Assembly (NCBI GenBank): GCA_003641545.1
Contig: QNAU01000019.1
Coordinates: forward strand, 1 to 11,785
DNA from: Thermotoga sp.
GTDB lineage: Bacteria > Thermotogota > Thermotogae > B21-G9
Length of the DNA stretch: 11,785 nt
Direction: 5' to 3'
Part shown: one piece after another, positions 3-11,668 of the stretch
Numbering within the stretch: the first letter of the stretch is position 1
How the letters are laid out: every line of letters begins with the position of its first letter
The notes under the pieces: generated by a model
Databases searched by the model: none
What the model was told of the DNA's origin: nothing
What the model saw: the letters and a program-made list of their open reading frames with translations, nothing else
Position numbers and translations under genes: made by a program

Positions 3-947
3 TCAATCCACGTTCATCAAATCCATCTTCAGATTTTCCAAAATCTTCTCGTTCACCACTTTCAATTTCGAGATCGCCAACATCAGTGCTCCCCCAACTG
101 GTGGAAGTTCAGGTTTTGAGAGTTCGTATCCTTGTTTTTTCAGTTCTTCTTCAACGAGCTTTCTGAAATGTTCCGACTTGAAGACCCCACCCGAATATGA
201 CACGAAATCCGAGTTCACCTTTCTACACACCGGTTCCACTCCCTCGACGAGTTCCTTCACATTTTTCAGAACGATCTCTCTTGATATCTCATCACCTTCC
301 TCAGCGTGTTTCATCACCATCTTTGCGAAGGATGCGAGGTGACTTTTGGGATGTTTTTCGGAGTAGAAGTATCTCAACACATCCGAGAAATCACCCAGTC
401 CCATCTGCCTTTTGAATTCCTCAACGAGTGGTGTCCACCTTTCTCTACCTTCCCAGTATTTCATCACCATCTTCAGAGCATCCAAGGATATGTCGTATGC
501 ACTCCCAGGATCACCGAGTAGATGTCCCCATCCACCTACCCTGTGTATTTTTCCCTCCTCATCGACTCCTATGACCATCGATCCAGTTCCAGCAACAATT
601 ATGACGCCTTTTTTTCTCATCCCAAGGGCACCTCTGAGGGCAACAACACAATCGTTTATAACACTTATCTCATCTGCCTTGAGGAAATTTCTCAAAAATT
701 CATGAATTTTTCCCGCGCTTCTCTCGGAAAAACCACCACCTGCCACTCCCAAGAATGCGGATTCGAAGTGCCAATCTTCCACACCTGCATCTTTCATGGC
801 TTTTAGCAAGGATTCTTTGAATCCTTCCATACCAACATCGTAGTGGTTACCGGGTCCTCCCGTTCCAACAGCCAGAATCTTCCCTTTTTCATTACACACC
901 GCCAATCTCGTCTTCGTTCCACCTGCATCAACACCCAGGAATTTCAT
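3..947 (-). CDS. BadF/BadG-type kinase, probable N-acetylglucosamine (or MurNAc) kinase
   Basis: A 314-residue, complete ATP-dependent sugar kinase of the ASKHA fold, in the BadF/BadG family that includes animal GlcNAc kinase and clostridial MurK. The motifs are phosphate-1 GVDAGGTKT (5-13), IND (97-99) with Asp99 at the place of the GlcNAc-kinase catalytic base, phosphate-2 VAGTGSM (118-124), the sugar-site/family block GGWGHLLGDPGS (138-149), and the adenosine-site SYSGG near residue 254. It would produce GlcNAc-6-P or MurNAc-6-P from the sugar released by NagZ; clostridial MurK is likewise found beside nagZ. I chose ATG 947, nine nt after GGAGG; ATGs at 953 and 965 are also in frame but spaced worse. 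It overlaps the ceramidase-like gene by 20 nt. The stop is at 5-3, so further operon genes may lie beyond the left edge. Confidence 0.85.
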   Translation of the reverse strand: MKFLGVDAGGTKTRLAVCNEKGKILAVGTGGPGNHYDVGMEGFKESLLKAMKDAGVEDWHFESAFLGVAGGGFSERSAGKIHEFLRNFLKADEISVINDCVVALRGALGMRKKGVIIVAGTGSMVIGVDEEGKIHRVGGWGHLLGDPGSAYDISLDALKMVMKYWEGRERWTPLVEEFKRQMGLGDFSDVLRYFYSEKHPKSHLASFAKMVMKHAEEGDEISREIVLKNVKELVEGVEPVCRKVNSDFVSYSGGVFKSEHFRKLVEEELKKQGYELSKPELPPVGGALMLAISKLKVVNEKILENLKMDLMNVD

Positions 948-2058
948 CCACATTTTCCTCCGCATCCATATGATTCTGTATATTCCTCAGCTCCCTCATC
1001 ACGCGATTGAATATAATTTTTTCCACACCCTCAGGGTATGGGGATACCATCCATTCGTAGGTTCCATCAATCCCTTCAGGGACGACGTAAGATCTGTAAG
1101 AATGGGCGTAATTTATCAAAATTGTGTTTTCACTCTCAAAATTTTGACAACTTTCATGGAAGAGTTCGAAAGGTAAAAACACGAGATTCAAATCGTCGAT
1201 CTTGAGGATGGATACCCTCGCCCTTTCAAATTTTTCATGATCCCTCTTAGTTTTCAAAAGTTCAACCGCAGGTTTCAGCCTTTCATCGTTTTCCAGAATC
1301 ACCCTTTTCTTCACAACGATCGGGAGTTTCAGTTCGAATTCTCGAAATTTCATGGTCGTTGGTTCCATCTCCTTCTCCCTTTTCCAATCGAGTTTTTCCA
1401 CGAAGATTTCAGATAGTCTCTCAACTTCTCTGAAACTTCGTTCTGTCCTCGTTCTGTTGGTGCTTATGTTTCCACAGCATGAATTCAAATATACCACGGA
1501 ACCACCCATTTTTTCCTCGAATTTTCTTCTAATGCCACCCGCAAGATCCGACGAATACAGGAGGTTTTCAGGACCGAGAACTGTGGGATGACATCGAAAG
1601 ATGAGAAGGAAAAAGGATTCATCCGTTGTTTTGAATTCCATCAAAACGACGGGTAATTTCGTCGATTCGGCTCTGTCCCTGTAATCGCAGATTCCGTCCA
1701 CCATCGTTCCCCTGATCACCATTTTTTCGAGATTTTTGCTCTTTTTTTTGGCTCTCTTGACCAATTCGCGCGAATACTCCACGATTTTTTCAAAGACCAT
1801 CGAAGGCTTTGGCCCAGAATGAGTATGTGTGGCGACCGGGATCAGTGGAACACCATTCAAAGATTGAGGAAATTTCTCCGGTATTCCCAGAAGATCGTAA
1901 ACGAGTATCGCTACCTCCGATGATCCATCACTCAGATATACGCAGAACGCTTCCAGCGGATCGTGTGTTCCTAAGGATGGATCCTGTCTGAAAACGTATC
2001 CAGCCATTTCGATACCTGCGGGAAATTCCATGATCAGTCTTGAGAATCCCGCTACCAT
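928..2058 (-). CDS. Neutral/alkaline ceramidase-like zinc amidase
   Basis: A 376-residue protein resembling the N-terminal catalytic domain of neutral/alkaline non-lysosomal ceramidases, which cleave N-acyl amide bonds using zinc. Visible landmarks in family order are EMAGY (17-21), HDPLEAF (32-38), the zinc motif THTHSGP (77-83), the second ligand region CHPTVLG (156-162) followed by SSDLAGG, and LNSCCGNIS (191-199), the counterpart of the usual GDVSPN stretch. It lacks the extra C-terminal domain of true ceramidases and has no signal peptide, so it should act in the cytoplasm, where a ceramide substrate is unlikely. Start ATG 2058 follows GGGAGG by 8 nt and overlaps the DUF917 stop; an in-frame ATG at 2085 lies inside that gene. 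Its stop lies 20 nt inside the kinase gene. An N-acyl amino-sugar deacylase role is plausible but inferred. Confidence 0.78.
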   Translation of the reverse strand: MVAGFSRLIMEFPAGIEMAGYVFRQDPSLGTHDPLEAFCVYLSDGSSEVAILVYDLLGIPEKFPQSLNGVPLIPVATHTHSGPKPSMVFEKIVEYSRELVKRAKKKSKNLEKMVIRGTMVDGICDYRDRAESTKLPVVLMEFKTTDESFFLLIFRCHPTVLGPENLLYSSDLAGGIRRKFEEKMGGSVVYLNSCCGNISTNRTRTERSFREVERLSEIFVEKLDWKREKEMEPTTMKFREFELKLPIVVKKRVILENDERLKPAVELLKTKRDHEKFERARVSILKIDDLNLVFLPFELFHESCQNFESENTILINYAHSYRSYVVPEGIDGTYEWMVSPYPEGVEKIIFNRVMRELRNIQNHMDAEENVDEIPGC

Positions 2059-3011
2059 TCCATCTTCCTCCCATAGGTGTACCATCTCTCATCCGCCCTG
2101 ACTGTGAAAACGTAAACACACTCTCCTTCCCTCGGTGGATTTTCCATTGGTAGAAGATCCTTCGTGCCCAGAAGAACCAGCAAATCCGGAAATTCGTATC
2201 TCCTTCCTCCACATTCAAAGACCATGTTCTCATTCTTGAAATACATCACATCACCATCTATCCAGACCCTACCTTCCGTAAAACCTTCAGACTGGATTCC
2301 CTCAACCTTCTCTATCTTCCCTTCCTTCAAAATCTTCCCATTCGTCAAACTGAGGATGGAATCCAGATCACCCCTTCTCAGAAATTCTCCAACCTTCAAA
2401 GAGGTGGTCAAACTTTCCCTGACGAGTGATCTTTTCGCATCCTTCACCTTCATGGGATGATCGCATACACCGACATTTCCAAATTTTGAGACCAAATGTC
2501 TCACGATCTTTTCGAATTTTTCATCGCTCTCCACGTCCTTGAAGATCAGTGTATCTCCATTTGAAAGAACCACACTGGCGGGAATTGCTCTGTATCCTAA
2601 GAACGAGGGGATGGAATGTTGGATCTCTGGAACTGCCCTTCCCGCACCGTCTCCATCGATGACGGGTATTCCCAATTCTTTCGAAATCCTGAAAATCACC
2701 GCGGTGTTGTATGCACCAAGTTCGGTTGCGAACAATCCTGCGAATTCAACCTTCAGGAAATTCTGCAGTTCGAGAACTGCCTTCAATTCTTTGAACACTC
2801 CTTCTTCATTCGGAAGATCCGATTCCAACGAACCGCAAGCATAGGGTGATGCGATCATCATCTCGTCATCGAGTTCATCGAGATCGACGAGATCGATCCT
2901 CCCGATCCCTCTTATCATTTCCAAACCTTCTTTTCTCGATCCTCCTCCACCGCATCCGAAAAAGCTGAGTCCAATCACCATGTTGATCAGATCTTCCTCA
3001 TCGAGGAACAT
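2052..3011 (-). CDS. DUF917 / S-methyl-thiohydantoin desulfurase-like protein
   Basis: A 319-residue cytoplasmic protein of the DUF917 family, whose domains are now named after S-methyl-thiohydantoin desulfurase. Family hallmarks are the N-terminal glycine cluster FFGCGGGGS (17-25), ASPYACGSLES (54-64), and the strongly conserved DGDGAGRAVPEIQ (119-131). The C-terminal half (about 155-319) is the more variable second domain. It is slightly shorter than many relatives. In other bacteria DUF917 genes often accompany hydantoinase HyuA/HyuB genes; here there is no hydantoinase, and the neighbours are BPL_N and ceramidase-like proteins. Start ATG 3011 follows AGGAGG with a 6-nt spacer, giving a 25-nt overlap with the preceding gene; its stop overlaps the next start in ATGGTAG. 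Family membership is fairly secure; the reaction in this operon is unknown. Confidence 0.8.
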   Translation of the reverse strand: MFLDEEDLINMVIGLSFFGCGGGGSRKEGLEMIRGIGRIDLVDLDELDDEMMIASPYACGSLESDLPNEEGVFKELKAVLELQNFLKVEFAGLFATELGAYNTAVIFRISKELGIPVIDGDGAGRAVPEIQHSIPSFLGYRAIPASVVLSNGDTLIFKDVESDEKFEKIVRHLVSKFGNVGVCDHPMKVKDAKRSLVRESLTTSLKVGEFLRRGDLDSILSLTNGKILKEGKIEKVEGIQSEGFTEGRVWIDGDVMYFKNENMVFECGGRRYEFPDLLVLLGTKDLLPMENPPREGECVYVFTVRADERWYTYGRKMEW

Positions 3012-3652
3012 ACTTTCCCTCCTTGGAAAATTATCGCGTTGAATAGAAGTTTCTGCGCTTGCTCTTCAGACAATTCCGGATGTGGACTGAACAGAACAAC
3101 ATCTCCGAATCCATACTTTGCGGTTATGATCGCCGGACTTTTTCTCATCGATATCGACGATCCACATTCGTTCACATCATCCAAGAATTCACCTATCACA
3201 TCGTATTTCCCTTTCGAAAAGATGGGACCGTTCTCATACCACATCCTCACCTCTCTCATTCCTGAAGCGATGGGATGATCATGCAATCTGATTCTCACAA
3301 ATCCTTTTCCCCGTTTCCAATTCCAAATATCAGGGTGATTCGTTTCAACGAGGACGATCTCCCCCGTCAGCGTTGTATCCTCCCAATAACCACCGATCGC
3401 CAAATACGCACCTGCACATATTCCAATGTATCTTGCCCCATCCTTCACGAGGCTTTTCAACATTTGAAGATTTCCCTTTCCAAGCGAGTTTGAGATTTCC
3501 GACGCTCTCCCGCCGGGTATTATCAAGACATCGGTCTCGGGAATCTCATCTTTGAAATCCACCACGTGGTCGAAGTTTTCCTTGAGAAGATCCATGATCT
3601 TTTTCAAACTCTCGTTGGCTGTTCCATTCCCAGAATACACACCGATTTTCAT
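2987..3652 (-). CDS. BPL_N-domain protein, class I glutamine-amidotransferase-like
   Basis: A 221-residue cytoplasmic protein with the flavodoxin-like class I glutamine amidotransferase fold of the BPL_N family, named for the N-terminus of some biotin-protein ligases; no ligase part is attached. It begins KIGVYSGNGT and has PGGRASE (46-52). The nucleophile elbow GICAGAYLA places Cys79, and SPHPEL (189-194) supplies His191 and Glu193, so a Cys-His-Glu triad appears intact and an active amidase or peptidase is plausible. Start ATG 3652 overlaps the permease stop by 4 nt (ATGA) and starts exactly where the family begins. Upstream in-frame ATGs lie inside the permease gene. The stop lies 25 nt inside the DUF917 gene. 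The substrate is unknown; from context, an amide or peptide bond on an imported amino-sugar compound is a guess. Confidence 0.78.
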   Translation of the reverse strand: MKIGVYSGNGTANESLKKIMDLLKENFDHVVDFKDEIPETDVLIIPGGRASEISNSLGKGNLQMLKSLVKDGARYIGICAGAYLAIGGYWEDTTLTGEIVLVETNHPDIWNWKRGKGFVRIRLHDHPIASGMREVRMWYENGPIFSKGKYDVIGEFLDDVNECGSSISMRKSPAIITAKYGFGDVVLFSPHPELSEEQAQKLLFNAIIFQGGKVCSSMRKI

Positions 3653-4497
3653 CCCTTCAACGCCCCCGCAGTCAATCCCCTTATGAACCATTTCTGCAGG
3701 GTGAGGAAGAGAATTATTATTGGGAGAGTTGCTATGATCATTCCAGCGGTCAAAAGACCCCATTTAGTTACATACTGGCCTCGGAATATGGTCAAACCGA
3801 GATTTATCGGCATTTTGGAGTAATCCTGTATTATCAAAAGGGGCCAGAAGAACATGTTCCATGACCACAGAACCTTGAATATAGCCATGGTTGCAATCGT
3901 CGGTTTCACGAGAGGTAACATTATCTTCCAATATATGAAGAGATCTCCAGCACCGTCTATCCTCGCAGCTTCCTCCAACTCCAGTGGAATGGACAGAAAG
4001 GTCTGTCTGAACAAGAAGACACCGAATCCGCTGGAGATGAATGGAATTATCAATCCGGTCAGGGTGTTTATCAACCCGAGTTTCATGGTTATCAGATACA
4101 TCGGTATCACGACCACGTAAAATGGTATCATCAGGGTTGAAAGTGCCAACCAAAAAAGGAAATTCCTCCCGGGAAATCTTTTCCTCGCCAAGGAATATCC
4201 CGCCATCGAGTCGAAGAGCAGACTCAACACCGTTATGATGGATGATACGATGATACTGTTCAAAAACATCGTTCCGAGTGTTACATTTGGATCGTAAAGT
4301 TTCGGATAATTCCAAGCTTCGACGTAATTTCTGAACGTCACCTCCTTGGGTATGAGAGAGTAAGATTCCAAACCTTTATCTGGCTCCAGAGAAGTTGATA
4401 TCATCCATATCAACGGTAAAAGGGTGAAGAAGGAAACGAATGACAGCAGAAGATATTTGAACAACAACAGAATTGGTTTCTTACGTTTTCTCATCAT
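3649..4497 (-). CDS. ABC sugar transporter permease, MalG/UgpE type
   Basis: A 282-residue inner-membrane partner of the preceding permease. It has six predicted hydrophobic segments, the first at about 13-35. The EAA loop at about 172-199 reads LELEEAARIDGAG, then KIMLPLVKP, a close match to the carbohydrate-uptake-1 consensus. The C-terminus QKWFIRGLTAGALKG is the standard tail of MalG-type permeases, so the protein is complete. The start is ATG 4497 or the adjacent ATG 4494; GGGAGG at 4507-4502 is spaced 4 or 7 nt respectively, so 4494 is at least as likely. Its last codons overlap the BPL_N gene in an ATGA, indicating coupled translation and tying the transporter to the downstream catabolic genes. 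Confidence 0.93.
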   Translation of the reverse strand: MMRKRKKPILLLFKYLLLSFVSFFTLLPLIWMISTSLEPDKGLESYSLIPKEVTFRNYVEAWNYPKLYDPNVTLGTMFLNSIIVSSIITVLSLLFDSMAGYSLARKRFPGRNFLFWLALSTLMIPFYVVVIPMYLITMKLGLINTLTGLIIPFISSGFGVFLFRQTFLSIPLELEEAARIDGAGDLFIYWKIMLPLVKPTIATMAIFKVLWSWNMFFWPLLIIQDYSKMPINLGLTIFRGQYVTKWGLLTAGMIIATLPIIILFLTLQKWFIRGLTAGALKG

Positions 4498-4507
4498 TTT
4501 TCCTCCC

Positions 4508-5392
4508 TCAGAAAATCTCCTCCGAACCGAATCCTTTCTTCTGAATGAAGGTCAGTATTATCAGCATGAGAAAGAGCACATAACTTATCGCGGATGCGTA
4601 TCCCATTTCAAACTCCTTGAAACCTTTCTCGTAGAGATAGTTGACGAGCGTGGTGGTTGCGTATCCGGGTCCTCCACCGGTCATTATGTATATAGGTGTG
4701 AATATCTGAAAAGAATCTATAACTGATGTGACTACCAGAAAGAATGTCGTCGGTTTCAACAGGGGAATAGTTATGTAGATGGTTTTCTTCCAACCGGTTG
4801 CACCATCGAGTTCCGCAGATTCGTAAAGTTCATACGGGATACTCTGCATTGCTGCAAGATACAGGAGCATCTTGTATCCAAAGGTTTTCCAAACCATGAC
4901 CATCGCGACCGAGAGCATGGCAAGTTTTGGATCAGTCAACCATCCCTTCGGAGGAATACCGAAAAGCCCGAGCAATCTGTTGGCAAGACTCGTCGGATGG
5001 GCGGATAATATCAGCATCCACACTATGCTGGCAACGACCATAGGTACGACCACCGGTATGAACATTGAGAGTCTGAAGAAATTTCTCCCGGGAAAATCGT
5101 CGTTCAGCATCAATGCGAAGATGAATCCTATCACGAGGGTCGTTGGAACATACAATATGGAGTAATAGATCGTGTTCAAAACCGCCCTCAGAAAAACTGG
5201 ATCCTTGAAAAGCTCGATGTAATTTGCCAATCCAACGAATTCGGGTTTCCCAAAGGTCAATAAACTGTAATCGGTAAAACTGAGTATGAATGACCAGATT
5301 ATTGGCACGAAGATGAAGATGGTGAATATCAAATAAGCCGGTGCGCAGAAGAGATAGGATACGATCGTATCTTTCAGTGATCTGCTCTTCAT
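4508..5392 (-). CDS. ABC sugar transporter permease, MalF/UgpA type
   Basis: A 294-residue inner-membrane protein with six predicted membrane segments (about 11-40, 71-96, 106-130, 158-182, 204-222, 260-284). The cytoplasmic EAA loop that docks on the ATPase is at about 188-213, with the pattern ELYESAELDGATGW followed by ITIPLLKP. This is the usual form in the first permease of carbohydrate-uptake-1 family importers. Start ATG 5392 follows AGGAGG by 7 nt, but that Shine-Dalgarno lies in the hairpin described for 5397-5432. The second permease starts 10 nt after its stop. The two permeases should form the heterodimeric channel for the binding protein encoded just upstream. No ATPase is encoded nearby, so a shared MsmX/UgpC-like ATPase from elsewhere probably drives import. 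Confidence 0.93.
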   Translation of the reverse strand: MKSRSLKDTIVSYLFCAPAYLIFTIFIFVPIIWSFILSFTDYSLLTFGKPEFVGLANYIELFKDPVFLRAVLNTIYYSILYVPTTLVIGFIFALMLNDDFPGRNFFRLSMFIPVVVPMVVASIVWMLILSAHPTSLANRLLGLFGIPPKGWLTDPKLAMLSVAMVMVWKTFGYKMLLYLAAMQSIPYELYESAELDGATGWKKTIYITIPLLKPTTFFLVVTSVIDSFQIFTPIYIMTGGGPGYATTTLVNYLYEKGFKEFEMGYASAISYVLFLMLIILTFIQKKGFGSEEIF

Positions 5393-5432: not shown

Positions 5433-6707
5433 TCACTTGATGTAGCCCTTCTTTCTCAGATACTTTTCTATCTCCTTTTGAGCCTGTTCGAAGGCATCCT
5501 TTATACTCTTCTTCCCGGTGAGTGCATCCTGCATCGCCACTCCCAAGGTTCTGGATATGAAGCTGGCTTCTGGGTGCTTTATCCAACCCCTCGAATCTTC
5601 GAGTTGTTTCAAATACATGGCTTTTATTGGATCTTCCTTGAAGAATGGATCCTGAGCCGCGTCAACTCTCGCCGGTAGGAATCCGGACACTTTGCAGTAT
5701 TCGAGCATTCTGTCTTTTTCGATCAACCAGAGGAGAAGTTTCGCAGCTTCTTCCTTGTATCTTGACTGCCTCGGTATGACGAAAGCATCCGCACCGGAGA
5801 AAGCGGTTCTCTTACCTGTCACCGGATGTTTGGGAAGTAGACCTACACCGAGTTTTTCGCCGAGCTCTTCCTTCAGAACTTTGGCGCTGTCCCCACAGTC
5901 GACATACATCGCGACCTTACCTTCCGCAAGCAGTTTTCTCACATCCCACAGATGGACGTTTATGGCGCCTGGTTGGACAACTCTGTACTCGTTGAAAAGC
6001 TTCCAGAAGAATTCTGCGCCTTCCAAGAATTCCTTGGAGTTGACGACCGGTCTGTCGTTCTCATCGAGTATCCTTCCACCAGCCTGCCATGAGAACACGA
6101 TCCACTGCGATCTGTATCTTGCGGACGTTCCAAAACCGTAAACATCTATCTTTCCATCCCCATCTCTATCGAAGGTGAGTTTCTTGGCATATTTCACGAA
6201 ATCATCCCAAGTCCAGTCTATCGGATCTGGAACGCCCCTTTCTTGGAATATATCCTTTCTGTAGAGGATCGTTCTGACATCGGTGAAGTATGGTATCGAG
6301 ATGAGCTTACCCTTGAGATATCTTGGGGAGTTGGCGTGGTATCTTGATTCCTCGAGAACCGATGGAATGAACTTTTTTAGCACATCCTCTGGAATGTATT
6401 TATCGAGAGGTTCCAAAACCCCGAATTTTGCCAGGACATGCTCGAATGGGGATCCAAGCTTTATCAGATCCGGTGCCTTTCCGGACGCAATCGCCACCTG
6501 TATCTTCGTGTGAGGATCCTCCGCCCACGGTATGACGACGAATTTTACCTTTATCCCTGTCGCTTTTTCGAATTCCTCGATGTATTTTTTGACGAGTGGA
6601 AGATCCGTCTTCGGATCTCCACCGGCGAACCAGAAGGTTATCTGTTTCGCCTGAAGTGCGGTTATAGCCAAAAGGAAGATGACAAACACCAAGATTATTC
6701 TTCTCAT
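5433..6707 (-). CDS. ABC transporter sugar-binding protein (family 1 extracellular solute-binding)
   Basis: A 424-residue periplasmic binding protein of the MalE/UgpB type. Residues 1-20 form a Sec signal ending LQA with no lipobox cysteine, so the mature protein is soluble, as is common in Thermotogales. The mature start KQITFWFAGG is typical of the family. A calcium-loop pattern DRDGDGKID (180-188) is present, as in many family-1 binding proteins. Later parts show 'LLAEGKVAMYVDCGD' and 'FSGADAFVIPRQS', both usual for the C-lobe, where stacking aromatics hold the sugar. Start ATG 6707 follows GGGGGTG. It lies between the secreted hydrolase and the two permeases, so the ligand is probably an oligosaccharide or glycoconjugate containing GlcNAc; this is inferred from position only. 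The gap after it holds a strong hairpin that may keep binding-protein levels above permease levels. Confidence 0.92.
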   Translation of the reverse strand: MRRIILVFVIFLLAITALQAKQITFWFAGGDPKTDLPLVKKYIEEFEKATGIKVKFVVIPWAEDPHTKIQVAIASGKAPDLIKLGSPFEHVLAKFGVLEPLDKYIPEDVLKKFIPSVLEESRYHANSPRYLKGKLISIPYFTDVRTILYRKDIFQERGVPDPIDWTWDDFVKYAKKLTFDRDGDGKIDVYGFGTSARYRSQWIVFSWQAGGRILDENDRPVVNSKEFLEGAEFFWKLFNEYRVVQPGAINVHLWDVRKLLAEGKVAMYVDCGDSAKVLKEELGEKLGVGLLPKHPVTGKRTAFSGADAFVIPRQSRYKEEAAKLLLWLIEKDRMLEYCKVSGFLPARVDAAQDPFFKEDPIKAMYLKQLEDSRGWIKHPEASFISRTLGVAMQDALTGKKSIKDAFEQAQKEIEKYLRKKGYIK

Positions 6708-6724
6708 GAATCACACCCCCTTCA

Positions 6725-8395
6725 TCATTTGATAGCTTCGAGGATGGCTTTTTTCAACTCATCGTTCAAAGAACCGTATCTGAAGACGACGAATCCATCC
6801 GCACCAGCCTGTCTCGATGCGTATATAGCCTTTTGAAGCTCGATCGGTGATATATCGTATCCCTGAACACCCATGAGTATCTTCACCTCGGGTGGCACCA
6901 CTTCTTTCGTTCCCTTGTAAACGTCTATTATCCACTGTGCTTTCTTTCCGAACTCCAGATGGTATGTCATCGGGATGAGGAACTGGCAGAATTCTCCAAA
7001 ATCGGAGTATCTCTGACCGTAATGAACCATCGCGAAGGCGTTGGCATTCGGATCGGTGTCTCCACCCTCTGGCATGAGAGCGGCGCTGAGTATCACATCC
7101 GGTTTCACGGATTTGACCGCATCGTGGATTTCCTTCACGAAGTTTCTGACGTCATCCATCCTCATCTGAACCCAAGCGTTTATGTCGTAATACCTGAATT
7201 CCTTGTACATCTCTATGAATTTCTTTCCATCTCCTTTGTTTCCCCACGTTTCTATCGCTGTCTTGAGTAGAAAGTCGAGATCCAATCCTTCCATCCATGC
7301 TCTTCCTATCTGGTATGGTCCCCATCCCCAAGCTCCCGTTGGATACCTTATGTAATCGAGATGTATTCCATCCACATCGTATCTCAGGAGGACCTGTTTC
7401 ATGAGATCCTCGACATATCTTCTGTACGCAGAATCAACCGCAAAGTCAATTGTGCTCTTGGCTCTTCTGAAATCCATACCTTCCTCGAGTGGTATTCCAT
7501 ACATACCGGATTCCGGATACAACGCCAAATAAGTTTTGTCCTTTGAAACGACGAACCACGCGTGAAGCTTCATGCCGTATTCATGGGCGGATTTTACCGC
7601 TCTTCTGAGTATGGAAGTGTCCTCCCAGAACCCCAAAGCACTTGGTGACTCCCAACACACCTTTCCCGAAATTCCCTTCACGAGCAGGAAGACATCGGTG
7701 AATCCAAGATCGTGTATCTCCTTCATTGCCTTTTCCACGCCGACCTTTCCGAGTGTGTCGTACCAAACCCATATACCTCTTATTTCCCCCGGTTTGGCTG
7801 GAACCTTTTCAATTTTGACTTCAGGTTTTTCCACAGGTGGCCAACTTGGAGGAGGAACGACGGGTCTTATGGAAGCGTAATTTGGCATACGTTTGTTGTT
7901 GTCCACCCATCTGATCGTTCTCGCGAGGAGGTAGATCAAGACGTCTGCAGTTATCACATCTTCTTTTCTGTCGTTCAGAATCTTTATCTGAGGTGGTATC
8001 CCCGGATTTTTCTCGAACTCCTCAACCAATTCCTTGGTGAGTTTGTATATGTCGTCCCACCAGATCTTCCCACCTTGAGCTCCCATGATCATCTTCTCTG
8101 GTTTTTTCAACTCCACAAGTTGAACTTCCTTCGGGATTACTCCAACCTTTTTGCCATTTTCACCATACAGTGCGAGCCATTTCGTCATGAGATACAGGGC
8201 TTCTTCCATCGACACTTTCTCCTTCGTTCCAGGCACGGTTATCTCATCCGGGAGCTTTTTTCCCAATTCTTCTATGGTGTTCGCAAGGACCGTTCCGAGT
8301 TTGAGTATCTGTTCACCGGTGAAAACCTTTGAAACTGAGAAACTGATCGACACGATCATGAGAAGAATCAGGTTGAACACCAAGAACCTCCGCAT
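6725..8395 (-). CDS. Secreted family-10-type glycosyl hydrolase with N-terminal pseudomurein-binding-like repeats
   Basis: A 556-residue exported protein. Residues 1-20 form a Sec signal (MRR plus a hydrophobic stretch ending near SFS). Residues 24-77 and 112-180 hold two divergent copies of one pattern: a helix 'IxKLxxxL...', an 'LP/IPP..I.V' turn, then a helix 'MEEALYLMTKWL' or 'ADVLIYLLARTI', followed by NNKRMPNY. This resembles the pseudomurein-binding repeat (PMBR) of methanogen surface proteins and pseudomurein endopeptidases. A proline-rich linker (178-202) leads to a TIM-barrel glycosyl hydrolase of the GHL10/DUF187-DUF4015 superfamily: GIWVWY (207-212), GMKLHAWFV (274-282), and VDGIHLDYIRYP (341-352), whose Asp347 is a likely catalytic or binding acid. 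The start ATG 8395 follows GGGAGGTG. It sits 24 nt after the SIS gene and 17 nt before the sugar-binding protein, so it probably produces what that protein captures. The polymer is unknown. Confidence 0.82.
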   Translation of the reverse strand: MRRFLVFNLILLMIVSISFSVSKVFTGEQILKLGTVLANTIEELGKKLPDEITVPGTKEKVSMEEALYLMTKWLALYGENGKKVGVIPKEVQLVELKKPEKMIMGAQGGKIWWDDIYKLTKELVEEFEKNPGIPPQIKILNDRKEDVITADVLIYLLARTIRWVDNNKRMPNYASIRPVVPPPSWPPVEKPEVKIEKVPAKPGEIRGIWVWYDTLGKVGVEKAMKEIHDLGFTDVFLLVKGISGKVCWESPSALGFWEDTSILRRAVKSAHEYGMKLHAWFVVSKDKTYLALYPESGMYGIPLEEGMDFRRAKSTIDFAVDSAYRRYVEDLMKQVLLRYDVDGIHLDYIRYPTGAWGWGPYQIGRAWMEGLDLDFLLKTAIETWGNKGDGKKFIEMYKEFRYYDINAWVQMRMDDVRNFVKEIHDAVKSVKPDVILSAALMPEGGDTDPNANAFAMVHYGQRYSDFGEFCQFLIPMTYHLEFGKKAQWIIDVYKGTKEVVPPEVKILMGVQGYDISPIELQKAIYASRQAGADGFVVFRYGSLNDELKKAILEAIK

Positions 8396-8419: not shown

Positions 8420-9142
8420 TCATAACGATGGGATGAGCTTGGAATACTTTTCGATGAACTTTTTGTTCATCTTGTCCCCACCTTCAACGTTCGAGCTCAC
8501 GAAAACGGGCGGAGTTTCACCTGATTTTGCAAACAGATCCGCTATCTCCGAAACCAAACAGTTCAGAATGAATATCCCCGAGATGCTGGATAGTGGTGCG
8601 ACTTTCATCCCGTTGATCTCCAAAACCGCATCACCGTATGGGACGTGGTTGTCGATGGCGAGATCCACGATTTCGTGGAGTTTCTTTCCAAACCTGTTCC
8701 TCGCTCCGACCATGTTTGCATGATCGAATGATGTTATCGCAGTAACGTGTGTGCCCATGCGTTTCGCAACCATCGCAAATTCCACTGGAACGGAGTTGAC
8801 ACCTGAATTTGAAAATATCATGACCACATCGTTCGGTTTCAAATCCAACGACTCCGCTATTATCTCTCCGTATCCATCGAGTTTCTCCAACCTCGAACTT
8901 CTGACTGCCCCTTCGTGAAGCATGAGAGAACTCACAAGAACGGGATAAACGGGAACGAGTCCACCAGCTCTGTAGAACAGCTCCTCCACGAGCATGTGGG
9001 AATGTCCCGTTCCAAAGGCGTAAATCAACCCATCGGATTTGAAGGAATGATAGATCCTATTCGCAAGGTTTTTGATTTTTTCCCCTTCCTGTGTCATGAT
9101 TTCCTTCAGGATACGATCAACCGCTTCATGGTATTTCTCCAT
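8420..9142 (-). CDS. SIS-domain sugar-phosphate protein (UPF0309-like)
   Basis: A 240-residue cytoplasmic protein built as one SIS (sugar isomerase) domain after an N-terminal helical lead. Visible motifs are the phosphosugar-binding GTGHSH (44-49) followed by EELFYRAGG (53-61), and the second phosphate loop SNSGVN (111-116). The order and spacing fit the UPF0309 group rather than full GlmS, which has an extra glutaminase domain, or classical MurQ etherase, which is longer. In a NagZ operon, candidate reactions are GlcN-6-P isomerisation/deamination or MurNAc-6-P de-etherification; the sequence alone does not choose. The start at ATG 9142 is supported by GAGGTGATC at 9157-9149, complementary to the 16S rRNA tail, with a 6-nt spacer. 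An in-frame GTG at 9154 lies inside that site. It overlaps the nagZ end by 17 nt, suggesting translational coupling. Family call fairly sure, reaction unknown. Confidence 0.82.
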   Translation of the reverse strand: MEKYHEAVDRILKEIMTQEGEKIKNLANRIYHSFKSDGLIYAFGTGHSHMLVEELFYRAGGLVPVYPVLVSSLMLHEGAVRSSRLEKLDGYGEIIAESLDLKPNDVVMIFSNSGVNSVPVEFAMVAKRMGTHVTAITSFDHANMVGARNRFGKKLHEIVDLAIDNHVPYGDAVLEINGMKVAPLSSISGIFILNCLVSEIADLFAKSGETPPVFVSSNVEGGDKMNKKFIEKYSKLIPSL

Positions 9143-10670
9143 CACATCGATCACCTCGCACGCTCCATCTCAAAGGAAGAACGGAGTTGGGATACCTCCC
9201 ATCCAGGAGAGCCTTAGCGACTGCCTCAAGTTGATGTTCCTCCGAACCGAACGATGCGATACTCACCGTGGTGAAGTCGAGCAAGATCATGTCGTATGGG
9301 TTGAAGAGGGAGATGTGAATCGATTCTTTCCCGATCGATTTCAAAATATTTTTCATGCGAAGAATTTCGATCGAGGATTTGGATTTTGAACGGGTCAGTA
9401 AGATGATCGTGTCGAAATTCGAGCAGGTTTCCAAAATCTTCGTGTCGTCTTCATCCACATCCATCCTTTCAATTCTGACAACCTTGGTCTTCAGTCTCTC
9501 GACGAAAAATTCGGCTTTCTCTTCATCGGATTTCGAATACAGGATGATCACGGATCTATCCGGTTTCAACGGAAGGACCCTTTTCCTCTCGAGAACGAAT
9601 ACGGATTTTGAAGAGGCTAAGTTCTCGAAATCCTTATCCTTCGAAAAATCCAGTATCTTTTCAACATCCTCCGGGAATTCGGGAAGATCGTTCAGAAATC
9701 TCTCCAACCTCTCGAGACTTTTCTCGATCTTCCACTTCGGTATGAAACCAGATTCCATCGCATCTTTGAGGGCAGACATGCTCTTCCTCTGATCATCCGG
9801 GGAATGGCTTATGAGTATCAGATCCACTCCAGCGTTGAATGCTTCGACTGTCGCTTTTTCAATTCCGTAATGTTCTTTCATTGCCCTCATCTCGAGACAA
9901 TCGCTTATGACCAAACCGTCGAACCCAATCTCCTCCCTCAGGATCGTGGTTATGAACCTCTTCGAGATGGTACCTGGTTTGTCATCAACGCTGGGATAGA
10001 GAACGTGCGCCGTCATGACCATGTCCACCAGATCGTTCTTGATGATCTGGTTGAATGGTTTCAAATGTATCGCACGGTATTCTTCCTCCAAGAGCCTCAC
10101 GATGGGTAGATCTTCATGGCTGTCCTCACTGGTTGGACCATGACCGGGAAAATGCTTCACGCACACTTTCAAATTGTGCTTTTTCAATCCTTCCATGAAT
10201 TTCTCCGCGTAGAGGATAACATCATCGGGATCATCCGAGAAGGACCGAATACCTATTATGGGATTTTCGATCGATGTGTTCACGTCAAGAACGGGTGCAA
10301 AGATGGTGTTTACACCGACGGTTGAAAGTTCCTTAGAGAATATTTCTCCCTGCCTTCTCGCAAGTTCGGGATCATTTCCAGCCCTGAGAGCCATTGGAGG
10401 AACACCAACTGTGAATCCATACTTGAGGGAGGAGAATCCACCTCCCTCCTGATCCGTCGCGATTATCAGTTTTCTTCCAGCGAAATTCACCAGATGATTC
10501 AGTTCCACCCACAACTGCACGGGATCGGATAGGTTCCTCGGAAAAAGATCTACCCCAGAGATACCGTATCTTATGAATTCATGTATCTCTTTTCCCAACG
10601 CCCCGTTGGGTTGGTTCCATCCAAAACCGAAGACGAAGAATCTTGGTGCGACTTCATCGATCCAACCCAC
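9126..10670 (-). CDS. nagZ: Glycoside hydrolase family 3 beta-N-acetylhexosaminidase (NagZ type)
   Basis: A 514-residue enzyme that should remove terminal beta-linked N-acetylglucosamine from imported fragments such as chito-oligomers or muropeptides. Residues 1-310 form the GH3 TIM barrel: DQEGGG (73-78), the NagZ signature KHFPGHG (172-178) with DSHEDLP (183-189) supplying the His/Asp acid-base dyad, and ISDCLEM (255-261), whose Asp257 is the expected nucleophile. Residues 330-514 form a GH3 C-terminal domain, which single-domain proteobacterial NagZ lacks; it ends with FGSEEHQLEAVAKALLDGRYP. There is no signal peptide, so it is cytoplasmic. I chose GTG 10670, nine nt after AGGAGG. The frame stays open to 10763, but ATG codons there lie upstream of the promoter's likely start point. 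It is the first gene of the operon and its 3' end overlaps the SIS gene by 17 nt. Other beta-hexosaminide substrates are possible. Confidence 0.9.
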   Translation of the reverse strand: MGWIDEVAPRFFVFGFGWNQPNGALGKEIHEFIRYGISGVDLFPRNLSDPVQLWVELNHLVNFAGRKLIIATDQEGGGFSSLKYGFTVGVPPMALRAGNDPELARRQGEIFSKELSTVGVNTIFAPVLDVNTSIENPIIGIRSFSDDPDDVILYAEKFMEGLKKHNLKVCVKHFPGHGPTSEDSHEDLPIVRLLEEEYRAIHLKPFNQIIKNDLVDMVMTAHVLYPSVDDKPGTISKRFITTILREEIGFDGLVISDCLEMRAMKEHYGIEKATVEAFNAGVDLILISHSPDDQRKSMSALKDAMESGFIPKWKIEKSLERLERFLNDLPEFPEDVEKILDFSKDKDFENLASSKSVFVLERKRVLPLKPDRSVIILYSKSDEEKAEFFVERLKTKVVRIERMDVDEDDTKILETCSNFDTIILLTRSKSKSSIEILRMKNILKSIGKESIHISLFNPYDMILLDFTTVSIASFGSEEHQLEAVAKALLDGRYPNSVLPLRWSVRGDRCDGEIP

Positions 10671-10693
10671 CCATCGGAACCTCCTGAAAATTT

Positions 10694-10730
10694 TTGATAA
10701 TATTATATGATATTTATCAGATATTATCAA
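10694..10730. promoter_or_regulatory. Nested palindromic operator overlapping the nagZ promoter
   Basis: Plus-strand TTGATAATAT (10694-10703) is matched by its exact reverse complement ATATTATCAA (10721-10730), a perfect 10-bp inverted repeat with a 17-bp centre. Inside the centre is a second palindrome, TGATA-TT-TATCA (10708-10719). The TGATA element therefore occurs four times, twice in each orientation. The outer arms cover the -35 hexamer and the region between -10 and the start point, and the inner palindrome fills the 17-bp spacer. A dimer or tetramer bound here would block RNA polymerase. The natural candidate is the DeoR-family protein encoded just upstream, but a ROK-type or LacI-type regulator elsewhere could also use it. 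Because the region is very AT-rich, chance contributes to some of the symmetry. The perfect 10-bp arms placed on the promoter argue for function. Confidence 0.6.
10702..10730 (-). promoter_or_regulatory. Strong sigma-A promoter of the nagZ operon
   Basis: On the minus strand, TTGATA (10730-10725) matches five of the six bases of the -35 consensus TTGACA. It is separated by exactly 17 bp from a perfect TATAAT (10707-10702). Transcription would start near 10695, leaving a leader of about 25 nt with AGGAGG at 10685-10680 and a GTG start at 10670. This is the only convincing promoter in the window and stands before a run of ten closely spaced genes. It lies inside the inverted repeats described separately. 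A weaker candidate upstream (TTGGCG 10795-10790, 17 bp, TAATAC 10772-10767) may be a secondary start or chance. Confidence 0.8.
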
Positions 10731-10813
10731 TACCATTCTAAAAAAATCGATGATTAGTAGCAATCTGTATTAGTATTTTAGCATACTTCCGCCAATTGAT
10801 AAATAATGAAAAT

Positions 10814-10846: not shown

Positions 10847-11614
10847 TCAGCGGTGGGACAATATGATCCTAACTTTTTGAGGAATCTTCTTAAGGAAGGT
10901 TTCACTCACACCATCGTCGGTTATCAGAATGTCGATATCGGTGATATCGACGGATAGATACTGAGCGGATCTTCTGAATTTTGAGCTGTCCACGACTCCG
11001 ATTATCTTTGAACTGTTTCTCGCGAGTTGTCTCACGACTTCCGCTCCTTCGAGATCCGAGGTGAAGAATCCCCTTTCGGGTATCACGGCGCTTGCACCTA
11101 TGAAACATAGATCGAATCGGAACATGTTCAAAGCCCTGTTCGTCACCGGACCGACGAATGACAGATTCTTCACATCGTACTTTCCCCCTATGAGTATGAC
11201 ATCAGATCTTTCCGAGCGGGACATGAGCTGAAGTATGGGTAAACATGGAGTGACAACGGTGACGCTGATCTTCCTCTCCACGATCTGTCTCGCTATTTGA
11301 AGGGTGGTCGTCCCAGCATCCAGACCTATCAGCATTCCATCCTTTATGAAATTCATCGCTTCCCTCGCTATGCTCACCTTCAGCTTGACGTTTTCTTTTT
11401 CCCTCTCCATGAAGGAGAGTTCATATTCGGAGAGATCCGGGAGGAACACGATACCCCTACTGCGTATGACTTTGCCCTCATGTTCCAAAACCTTTATATC
11501 CCTTCTGACGGTTATCTCGGATGTTCCCAAAATTTTCGACAGTTCACCTATGCTCATCTTCTTCTTGGCTTTCAGAATCTCAAGGATCCTTCTCCTTCTC
11601 TCAACTACCGTCAT
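10847..11614 (-). CDS. DeoR-family transcriptional repressor, probable regulator of the downstream amino-sugar operon
   Basis: A 255-residue protein of typical DeoR/GlpR length. Residues 1-57 form the N-terminal winged helix: the usual ERRRRILEIL opening, the helix-turn-helix MSIGELSKILGTSEITVRRD (about 20-39), then a wing ending in RSRGI. Residues 75-235 form the DeoRC sensor domain, related to phosphosugar isomerases, with the phosphosugar-loop pattern LDAGTTTLQIA. In this family a phosphorylated sugar normally relieves repression. I place the start at ATG 11614 because GGGAGG stands 6 nt before it and the family usually begins just before ERxxxIL. A GTG at 11638 would add eight residues. 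The gene ends 176 nt before the nagZ start, on the same strand, and the strong promoter with inverted repeats in that gap is its most likely target. That target and the inducer, perhaps GlcNAc-6-P or GlcN-6-P, are inference. Confidence 0.9.
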   Translation of the reverse strand: MTVVERRRRILEILKAKKKMSIGELSKILGTSEITVRRDIKVLEHEGKVIRSRGIVFLPDLSEYELSFMEREKENVKLKVSIAREAMNFIKDGMLIGLDAGTTTLQIARQIVERKISVTVVTPCLPILQLMSRSERSDVILIGGKYDVKNLSFVGPVTNRALNMFRFDLCFIGASAVIPERGFFTSDLEGAEVVRQLARNSSKIIGVVDSSKFRRSAQYLSVDITDIDILITDDGVSETFLKKIPQKVRIILSHR

Positions 11615-11668
11615 CTCGAGCCTCCCACCGATATCCACCTTGTCGACCTTATGATACCATGATGAGAT

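Follow-up and report, generated by a model that had tools for sequence, protein, structure and literature searches.

Results

The window analysed here, positions 1-11,785 of contig QNAU01000019.1 of a Thermotoga sp. assembly (GCA_003641545.1), carries a predicted amino-sugar import operon in which one open reading frame (ORF) encodes a 556-residue protein that joins an array of pseudomurein-binding repeats (PMBR) to a GHL10-type TIM barrel (Table 1). PMBR is the domain by which methanogenic archaea and their viruses hold the archaeal cell wall. A first-pass annotation had noticed a PMBR-like region before the barrel; this observation is confirmed, more strongly than it was claimed, and its interpretation is partly supported.

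Both Pfam models matched the protein above their cut-offs. GHL10 (PF02638) covers residues 204-522 (E 5.9e-15, 55.6 bits, cut-off 27.9), which together with the TIM-barrel fold bears out the proposed GHL10 class. The PMBR model PF09373 matches residues 147-176 (E 3.1e-6, 27.4 bits, cut-off 24.9) and reaches 30.6 bits when the fragment 112-200 is scanned alone. Pfam revealed no other PMBR copy in the 556 residues (residues 22-111 alone gave no match at E 10) and no C71 or C39 peptidase domain at E 1, so that the protein does not belong to the Pei-type class.

The AlphaFold models of the whole protein (predicted local distance difference test, pLDDT, 86.9; predicted template modelling score, pTM, 0.66) and of the N-terminal domain (pLDDT 95.2, pTM 0.92) contain, in the same order, four beta-alpha units arranged in two pairs within residues 24-176. 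The strand (E) and helix (H) limits are E24-26/H27-43/E51-53, E60-62/H63-77/E90-92, E110-112/H113-129/E137-141 and E144-148/H150-167/E173-175, and the two halves of the domain present a weak sequence likeness (hhalign 21%, E 0.001). The two copies proposed initially would be better read as four units. Compared with PeiW and PeiP (four repeats), PeiR (two) and MTH719 (three for pseudomurein binding), the count here is one according to Pfam and four according to the predicted structure and the whole-length profile alignment. In this alignment, a profile of 12 bacterial sequences matched a profile of 22 methanogen-type PMBR regions, hand-picked from 121 such proteins, end to end over residues 21-180 (hhalign 97.4%, E 3.7e-11, 146 of 161 columns), against 0.1% for the reversed control and at most 1.0% in 50 column shuffles. 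Furthermore, when the N-terminal model was searched against the PDB, the top four rows were all pseudomurein endoisopeptidases: PeiP (8z4f_A, E 6.6e-5, prob 1.00), PeiR (8z4n_A and 8z4h_A, E 0.10 and 0.11) and 8z4f_B (E 0.27). The fifth was a CBS protein (E 0.59, prob 0.04). The comparison with solved pseudomurein lysins thus recovers the PMBR fold. An initial search of solved structures using the N-terminal profile returned nothing below E 0.4, and a methanogen PMBR profile recognized only unit 4 in the bacterial proteins, P0009-P0012 remaining below 7 bits.

At least 11 full-length relatives (P0002-P0012), one of them named Candidatus Bipolaricaulota, are 52-75% identical to the window protein over the alignment. 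Among P0001-P0012, P0001 alone carries a precomputed PF09373 match, so the PMBR link is hidden by the Pfam cut-off; in fact, when P0002, P0006, P0007, P0010 and P0012 were rescanned, all except P0010, which gave none, showed a PMBR match below the cut-off. PF09373 exceeded its cut-off in 2 of 103 Thermotogota genomes and in 0 of 14 controls. Some match to the whole protein was found in 21 of the 103 genomes, and it covered the N-terminal part in seven (G000, G022, G062, G063, G064, G086 and G087), of which G000, the genome of the window, is 79% complete.

In the aligned barrels, the putative catalytic acid Glu443 is conserved in all 209 non-distant rows (14/14 with the bacterial N-terminal domain, 3/3 of the f8 long proteins from G062-G064, 122/122 archaeal-type, 7/7 viral, 9/9 short and 54/54 other); the 37 distant rows lack this conservation. 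Tyr459 of the YGQ motif is kept in the same groups (14/14, 3/3, 122/122, 7/7 and 54/54, making 200 rows) apart from the short proteins, where it is replaced in 9/9 rows, some of them near-copies of one another, and Gly460 is changed to Ala in 28 of the 54 other rows. In Cwp19, a GHL10 lytic transglycosylase, Asp195-Asp196 align with Asp347-Tyr348 of the window protein (residues numbered by hand). Because Asp196 is the residue proposed for the Cwp19 active site (PMC5765458) and it aligns with a tyrosine, the Cwp19 activity cannot be assumed here.

The same pairing of domains occurs in methanogens. Proteins with PMBR and a transglutaminase domain contain a barrel that aligns with the query (E 3e-18 and weaker, among the best 120 of 231 matches), and a search from one of them returned PF09373 in 120/120 and PF01841 in 111, counted by hand, among the best 120 of 298 matches. 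Metagenome labels aside, the rows with an organism name among the matches listed are methanogens, mostly Methanothermobacter and Methanobacterium, with two metagenome-assembled genome rows of Methanomicrobiales. Four proteins (P0129, P0131, P0134 and P0145) lack the transglutaminase domain and present PMBR before the barrel, which is the order of the window protein. The Methanothermobacter ones (P0129, P0131 and P0134, with P0145 alike), named in the source as pseudomurein-binding repeat-containing, DUF4015-containing or hypothetical proteins, have the same barrel type with the LDYIRYP, SAALMPE and YGQ motifs, and P0131 and P0134 also have a signal-like start by eye. Unlike the window protein, their barrels are archaeal, fall in a separate clade and are shorter between LDYIRYP and MPE, and P0129, P0131 and P0134 carry two PMBR arrays each by eye. 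A central Trp/Lys/Tyr-rich insert is present in the methanogen-type barrels of P0075, P0083, P0086, P0091 and P0105 and absent from P0085 and the window protein. Extracellular methanogen transglutaminases have been treated as candidate cross-linkers (PMC11915815).

Relatives were also found on viral contigs, one among 22 stretches in scan A1, none among 28 in A3 and seven among 22 in A4, one of these being the L046 contig again; the L046 barrel protein used as query found itself alone among 3 stretches. In L046, C39 (43.3 bits, cut-off 22) and PMBR (24.2 bits, cut-off 24.9) occur in one gene; the next gene encodes PMBR (35.8 bits) together with the barrel, and terminase, portal and head genes come after it. 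This barrel is below the Pfam cut-off (DUF4015 16.9), but its protein shares 38% identity with P0131 across 319 residues spanning both domains, and 25% with the window protein across the barrel. L050 has PMBR above the cut-off with a barrel adjoining terminase and portal; in L051, L053 and L054 both domains are above their cut-offs. PMBR above the cut-off thus accompanies the barrel on five contigs (L046, L050, L051, L053 and L054). In L052 the barrel is present with PMBR below the cut-off, and in L055 a barrel below the Pfam cut-off has no PMBR match. The viral proteins share the barrel motifs and PMBR (L055 the barrel only) with the window protein; they differ in their location, in the C39 gene adjoining in L046 and in the endolysin-like C-terminus (PHROGs) of L052 and L054. 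L053 and L054 have a C-terminal domain in common with a PDB chain listed simply as P210 WT; the middle of L054 matches 8z4f_B. As PMBR is present, the hosts are probably methanogens. A barrel match in H2/L045 (MT839309.1, unverified, labelled Bacteriophage sp.) was dropped, its other genes looking cellular and Bacteroidota-like by eye.

Unrooted trees were built from chosen subsets (86 of 239 extracted barrels, then 65 of 246 for the final tree) without a motif filter; the filter of a superseded first tree had removed 29 rows. In the final tree one branch (100/100) separates the 7 viral and 16 archaeal-type rows from all the others, the viral rows being nested among the archaeal-type ones (100/99). 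The rows with the bacterial N-terminal domain fall, together with the f8 long and short rows, in a 17-row set (100/100) that adjoins rows without PF09373, taken as bacterial and mostly without an organism name. The pairing of PMBR and barrel has therefore arisen more than once or been lost often, and the trees give no support to a recent acquisition of the whole gene by bacteria from the methanogens sampled.

The operon around the enzyme reads, in minus-strand order, DeoR, NagZ, SIS, the enzyme, the binding protein, two permeases, the GATase-like, the DUF917-like and the 928-2085 proteins, and the BadF-type kinase. Pfam and NCBIfam matches for the importer, NagZ, SIS and kinase genes agree with the amino-sugar import operon, including NagZ, described in the first-pass annotation. 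Its GlcNAc/MurNAc-type (N-acetylglucosamine/N-acetylmuramic acid) kinase holds as a BcrAD/BadF-type protein but not at the level of NagK, and of its "several amidase-like proteins" Pfam supports two, the GATase-like and the DUF917-like, whereas the 928-2085 protein, which we take to resemble neutral ceramidase, has no match above the cut-off. The GATase-like start codon is probably further inside, as the ORF overlaps that of a permease. The precomputed Pfam of two barrel proteins, P0023 and P0024, includes BPL_N and PF06283 (presumably ThuA-type), echoing the separate BPL_N gene of the window. A promoter-like site (TTGATA-17-TATAAT, 11/12) at 10702-10730 (minus strand) lies inside the 5' end of the listed NagZ ORF, the scan giving 28 such sites against 15.3 in shuffles; it may be the operon promoter, and its position makes a more internal start of NagZ probable.

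This operon recurs in other Thermotogota. Five other loci (L033-L036 and L038) contain relatives of DeoR, SIS, the enzyme, the three importer genes, the 928-2085 protein and the kinase, although L033 has its DeoR gene, and L038 its kinase gene, on the opposite strand; L002 holds the first part in the same order. In L034 and L035 a GH20 gene follows the kinase. L034-L036 have two GHL10 barrels per operon: a protein that has YGQ and whose N-terminal domain has diverged, and a short one that lacks both. MurQ, above its cut-off in 9/9 genomes tested, lies in this genome at G000:C21:3543-4415, next to NagA (locus L048) and apart from the operon, with a second NagA match elsewhere; the operon is not, in this respect, one for MurNAc recycling. 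PF01841 was found in 5/7 genomes tested, outside the operon. NagS activity was not adopted for the SIS protein, as three homologues (25.7-35.7% identity) are reported to lack it (PMC12680351).

Table 1. Coordinates of genes and protein features in the window, with their basis
Feature	Position	Strand	Basis
DeoR-family regulator (AgaR-like)	10847..11638	-	AgaR 168 bits, cut-off 260
NagZ-type GH3 beta-N-acetylhexosaminidase	9126..10763	-	PF00933; PRK05337 213.6 bits, cut-off 207; signal peptide not evident by eye
SIS-domain sugar-phosphate protein (UPF0309/NagS-like)	8420..9154	-	PRK02947 292.5 bits, cut-off 135; PDB 3cvj, 9eol
GHL10-type enzyme with N-terminal PMBR array, 556 aa	6725..8395	-	ORF listing, Pfam, AlphaFold models
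Signal-peptide-like N-terminus, residues 1-20	8336..8395	-	by-eye reading; no Cys in residues 1-20
PMBR-like unit 1, residues 24-53	8237..8326	-	model secondary structure and profile alignment; no Pfam match
PMBR-like unit 2, residues 60-92	8120..8218	-	model secondary structure and profile alignment; no Pfam match
PMBR-like unit 3, residues 110-141	7973..8068	-	model secondary structure and profile alignment; no Pfam match
PMBR unit 4, residues 144-176 (Pfam match 147-176)	7868..7966	-	PF09373 above cut-off
TIM barrel, residues 204-556 (GHL10 match 204-522)	6728..7786	-	
Asp347 (LDYIRYP), candidate active-site residue	7355..7357	-	Asp in 246/246 aligned barrels; putative role
Glu443 (LMPE), candidate catalytic acid	7067..7069	-	conservation; putative role
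YGQ motif, residues 459-461	7013..7021	-	conservation in aligned barrels
Sugar-binding protein, ABC importer	5433..6707	-	PF13416, PF01547
ABC permease	4508..5392	-	NCBIfam permease models, all below cut-offs
ABC permease	3649..4497	-	PF00528
GATase-like protein (BPL_N)	2987..3763	-	PF09825 65.7 bits, cut-off 24.2
DUF917/S-Me-THD-like protein	2052..3011	-	PF06032, PF20906
Conserved operon protein	928..2085	-	no Pfam match above cut-off, no NCBIfam or PDB match
BadF-type sugar kinase (NagK-like)	3..965	-	PF01869; NagK_SO3507 101 bits, cut-off 370

Discussion

The occurrence of PMBR and barrel together in methanogen and viral proteins, the C39 neighbour and the endolysin-like C-termini suggest a glycan-cutting enzyme for pseudomurein-type walls. 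The explanation that we favour, at close to even chances, is that the window enzyme holds on to a wall glycan containing GlcNAc, probably pseudomurein, and cleaves it for uptake. The bacterium would secrete the enzyme, the four-unit PMBR array would hold it on its substrate, and the barrel would cleave the GlcNAc-containing backbone of the wall polymer, most likely debris of methanogen pseudomurein. The ABC importer would then bring in the fragments, NagZ (or GH20 in some relatives) would take GlcNAc off in the cytoplasm, and the kinase and the SIS protein would hand the sugars on, with the DeoR-family protein as the probable regulator. A wider reading, which we hold tentatively, is that this is a pseudomurein-utilisation locus with a wall-anchored glycan hydrolase, and that the same barrel serves methanogen wall turnover and viral lysis as the glycan-cutting counterpart of the endoisopeptidases.

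Several observations weigh against a pseudomurein substrate. The N-terminal model superposes poorly on 8z4f_A as a whole (template modelling score 0.37, root-mean-square deviation 12.7 over 158 columns), so the good fit is limited to part of the array (73 residues at 2.4). The N-terminus of the f8 long proteins has diverged, and the one scanned gave no PMBR match. The bacterial PMBR barrels group with PMBR-less barrels, away from the archaeal-type and viral ones, and so need not have the same substrate as these; the YGQxY pattern is also present in 24 of the 54 other barrels, none with precomputed PF09373. NagZ is confined to the window and L033, being missing from L034-L036 and L038. No talosaminuronate breakdown gene was identified, and a search for PF12386 (Pei-type peptidase) gave no match in any of 103 Thermotogota genomes, but no positive control matched either. 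Finally, the PMBR of PeiW also binds lysozyme-treated bacterial spheroplasts, as do two motifs of the MTH719 domain, three being needed to bind pseudomurein (PMC3124540), and bacterial wall debris is therefore a possible substrate.

This last point leads to the alternative, in our opinion unlikely but the first to be weighed, that the enzyme binds and cuts bacterial murein, its own or debris, once other enzymes have opened it, with PMBR seeing exposed GlcNAc ends and the importer feeding NagZ. The authors of the MTH719 study presumed GlcNAc recognition, but they report no binding of this domain to purified murein particles or intact bacteria (PMC3124540). Moreover, MurQ and a NagA are at another locus, GH20 replaces NagZ in L034 and L035, and the activity of Cwp19 is not transferable given the tyrosine at position 348.

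Rather improbable is that the PMBR array has been re-used for a different polysaccharide containing amino sugars, for example an exopolysaccharide, a glycan of an S-layer or glycoprotein, or a methanochondroitin-like wall. The separation of the bacterial clade from the archaeal and viral one, a regulator closest to AgaR (below its cut-off), the divergence of the f8 N-terminal domain and the GH20 genes of two f8 operons would fit this idea, but the full-length family retains the four-unit layout of methanogens and the barrel retains Asp347 and Glu443, though PMBR-less barrels retain both too. That short helical repeats resemble PMBR by chance here, in a domain of unrelated role, is very improbable, being largely refuted by the controlled whole-length profile match and by the lysins coming first in an independent fold search.

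Among known systems, the endoisopeptidases PeiP, PeiW and PeiR share the PMBR domain with the window protein, whose N-terminal model has its closest fold matches in PeiP and PeiR, but their catalytic domain is a peptidase (C71 or C39) instead of a glycosidase barrel. DigH belongs to the GHL10 family and acts on murein. Cwp19 shares the barrel fold, but it carries CWB2 repeats (PMC6016235), acts on murein and has Asp196 where the window protein has Tyr. Bacterial PMBR is not new as such, as it was already noted in 7 bacterial proteins (PMC2989375). The known pseudomurein-degrading enzymes, as far as the available sources describe them, cut peptides, and no glycan-cutting one was recognized in the portions of the open-access literature searched. 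If the barrel cuts the pseudomurein glycan, it would be a missing type of enzyme for opening methanogen walls, it would account for unnamed proteins in methanogens and on viral contigs, and it would mean that bacteria recycle archaeal wall material.
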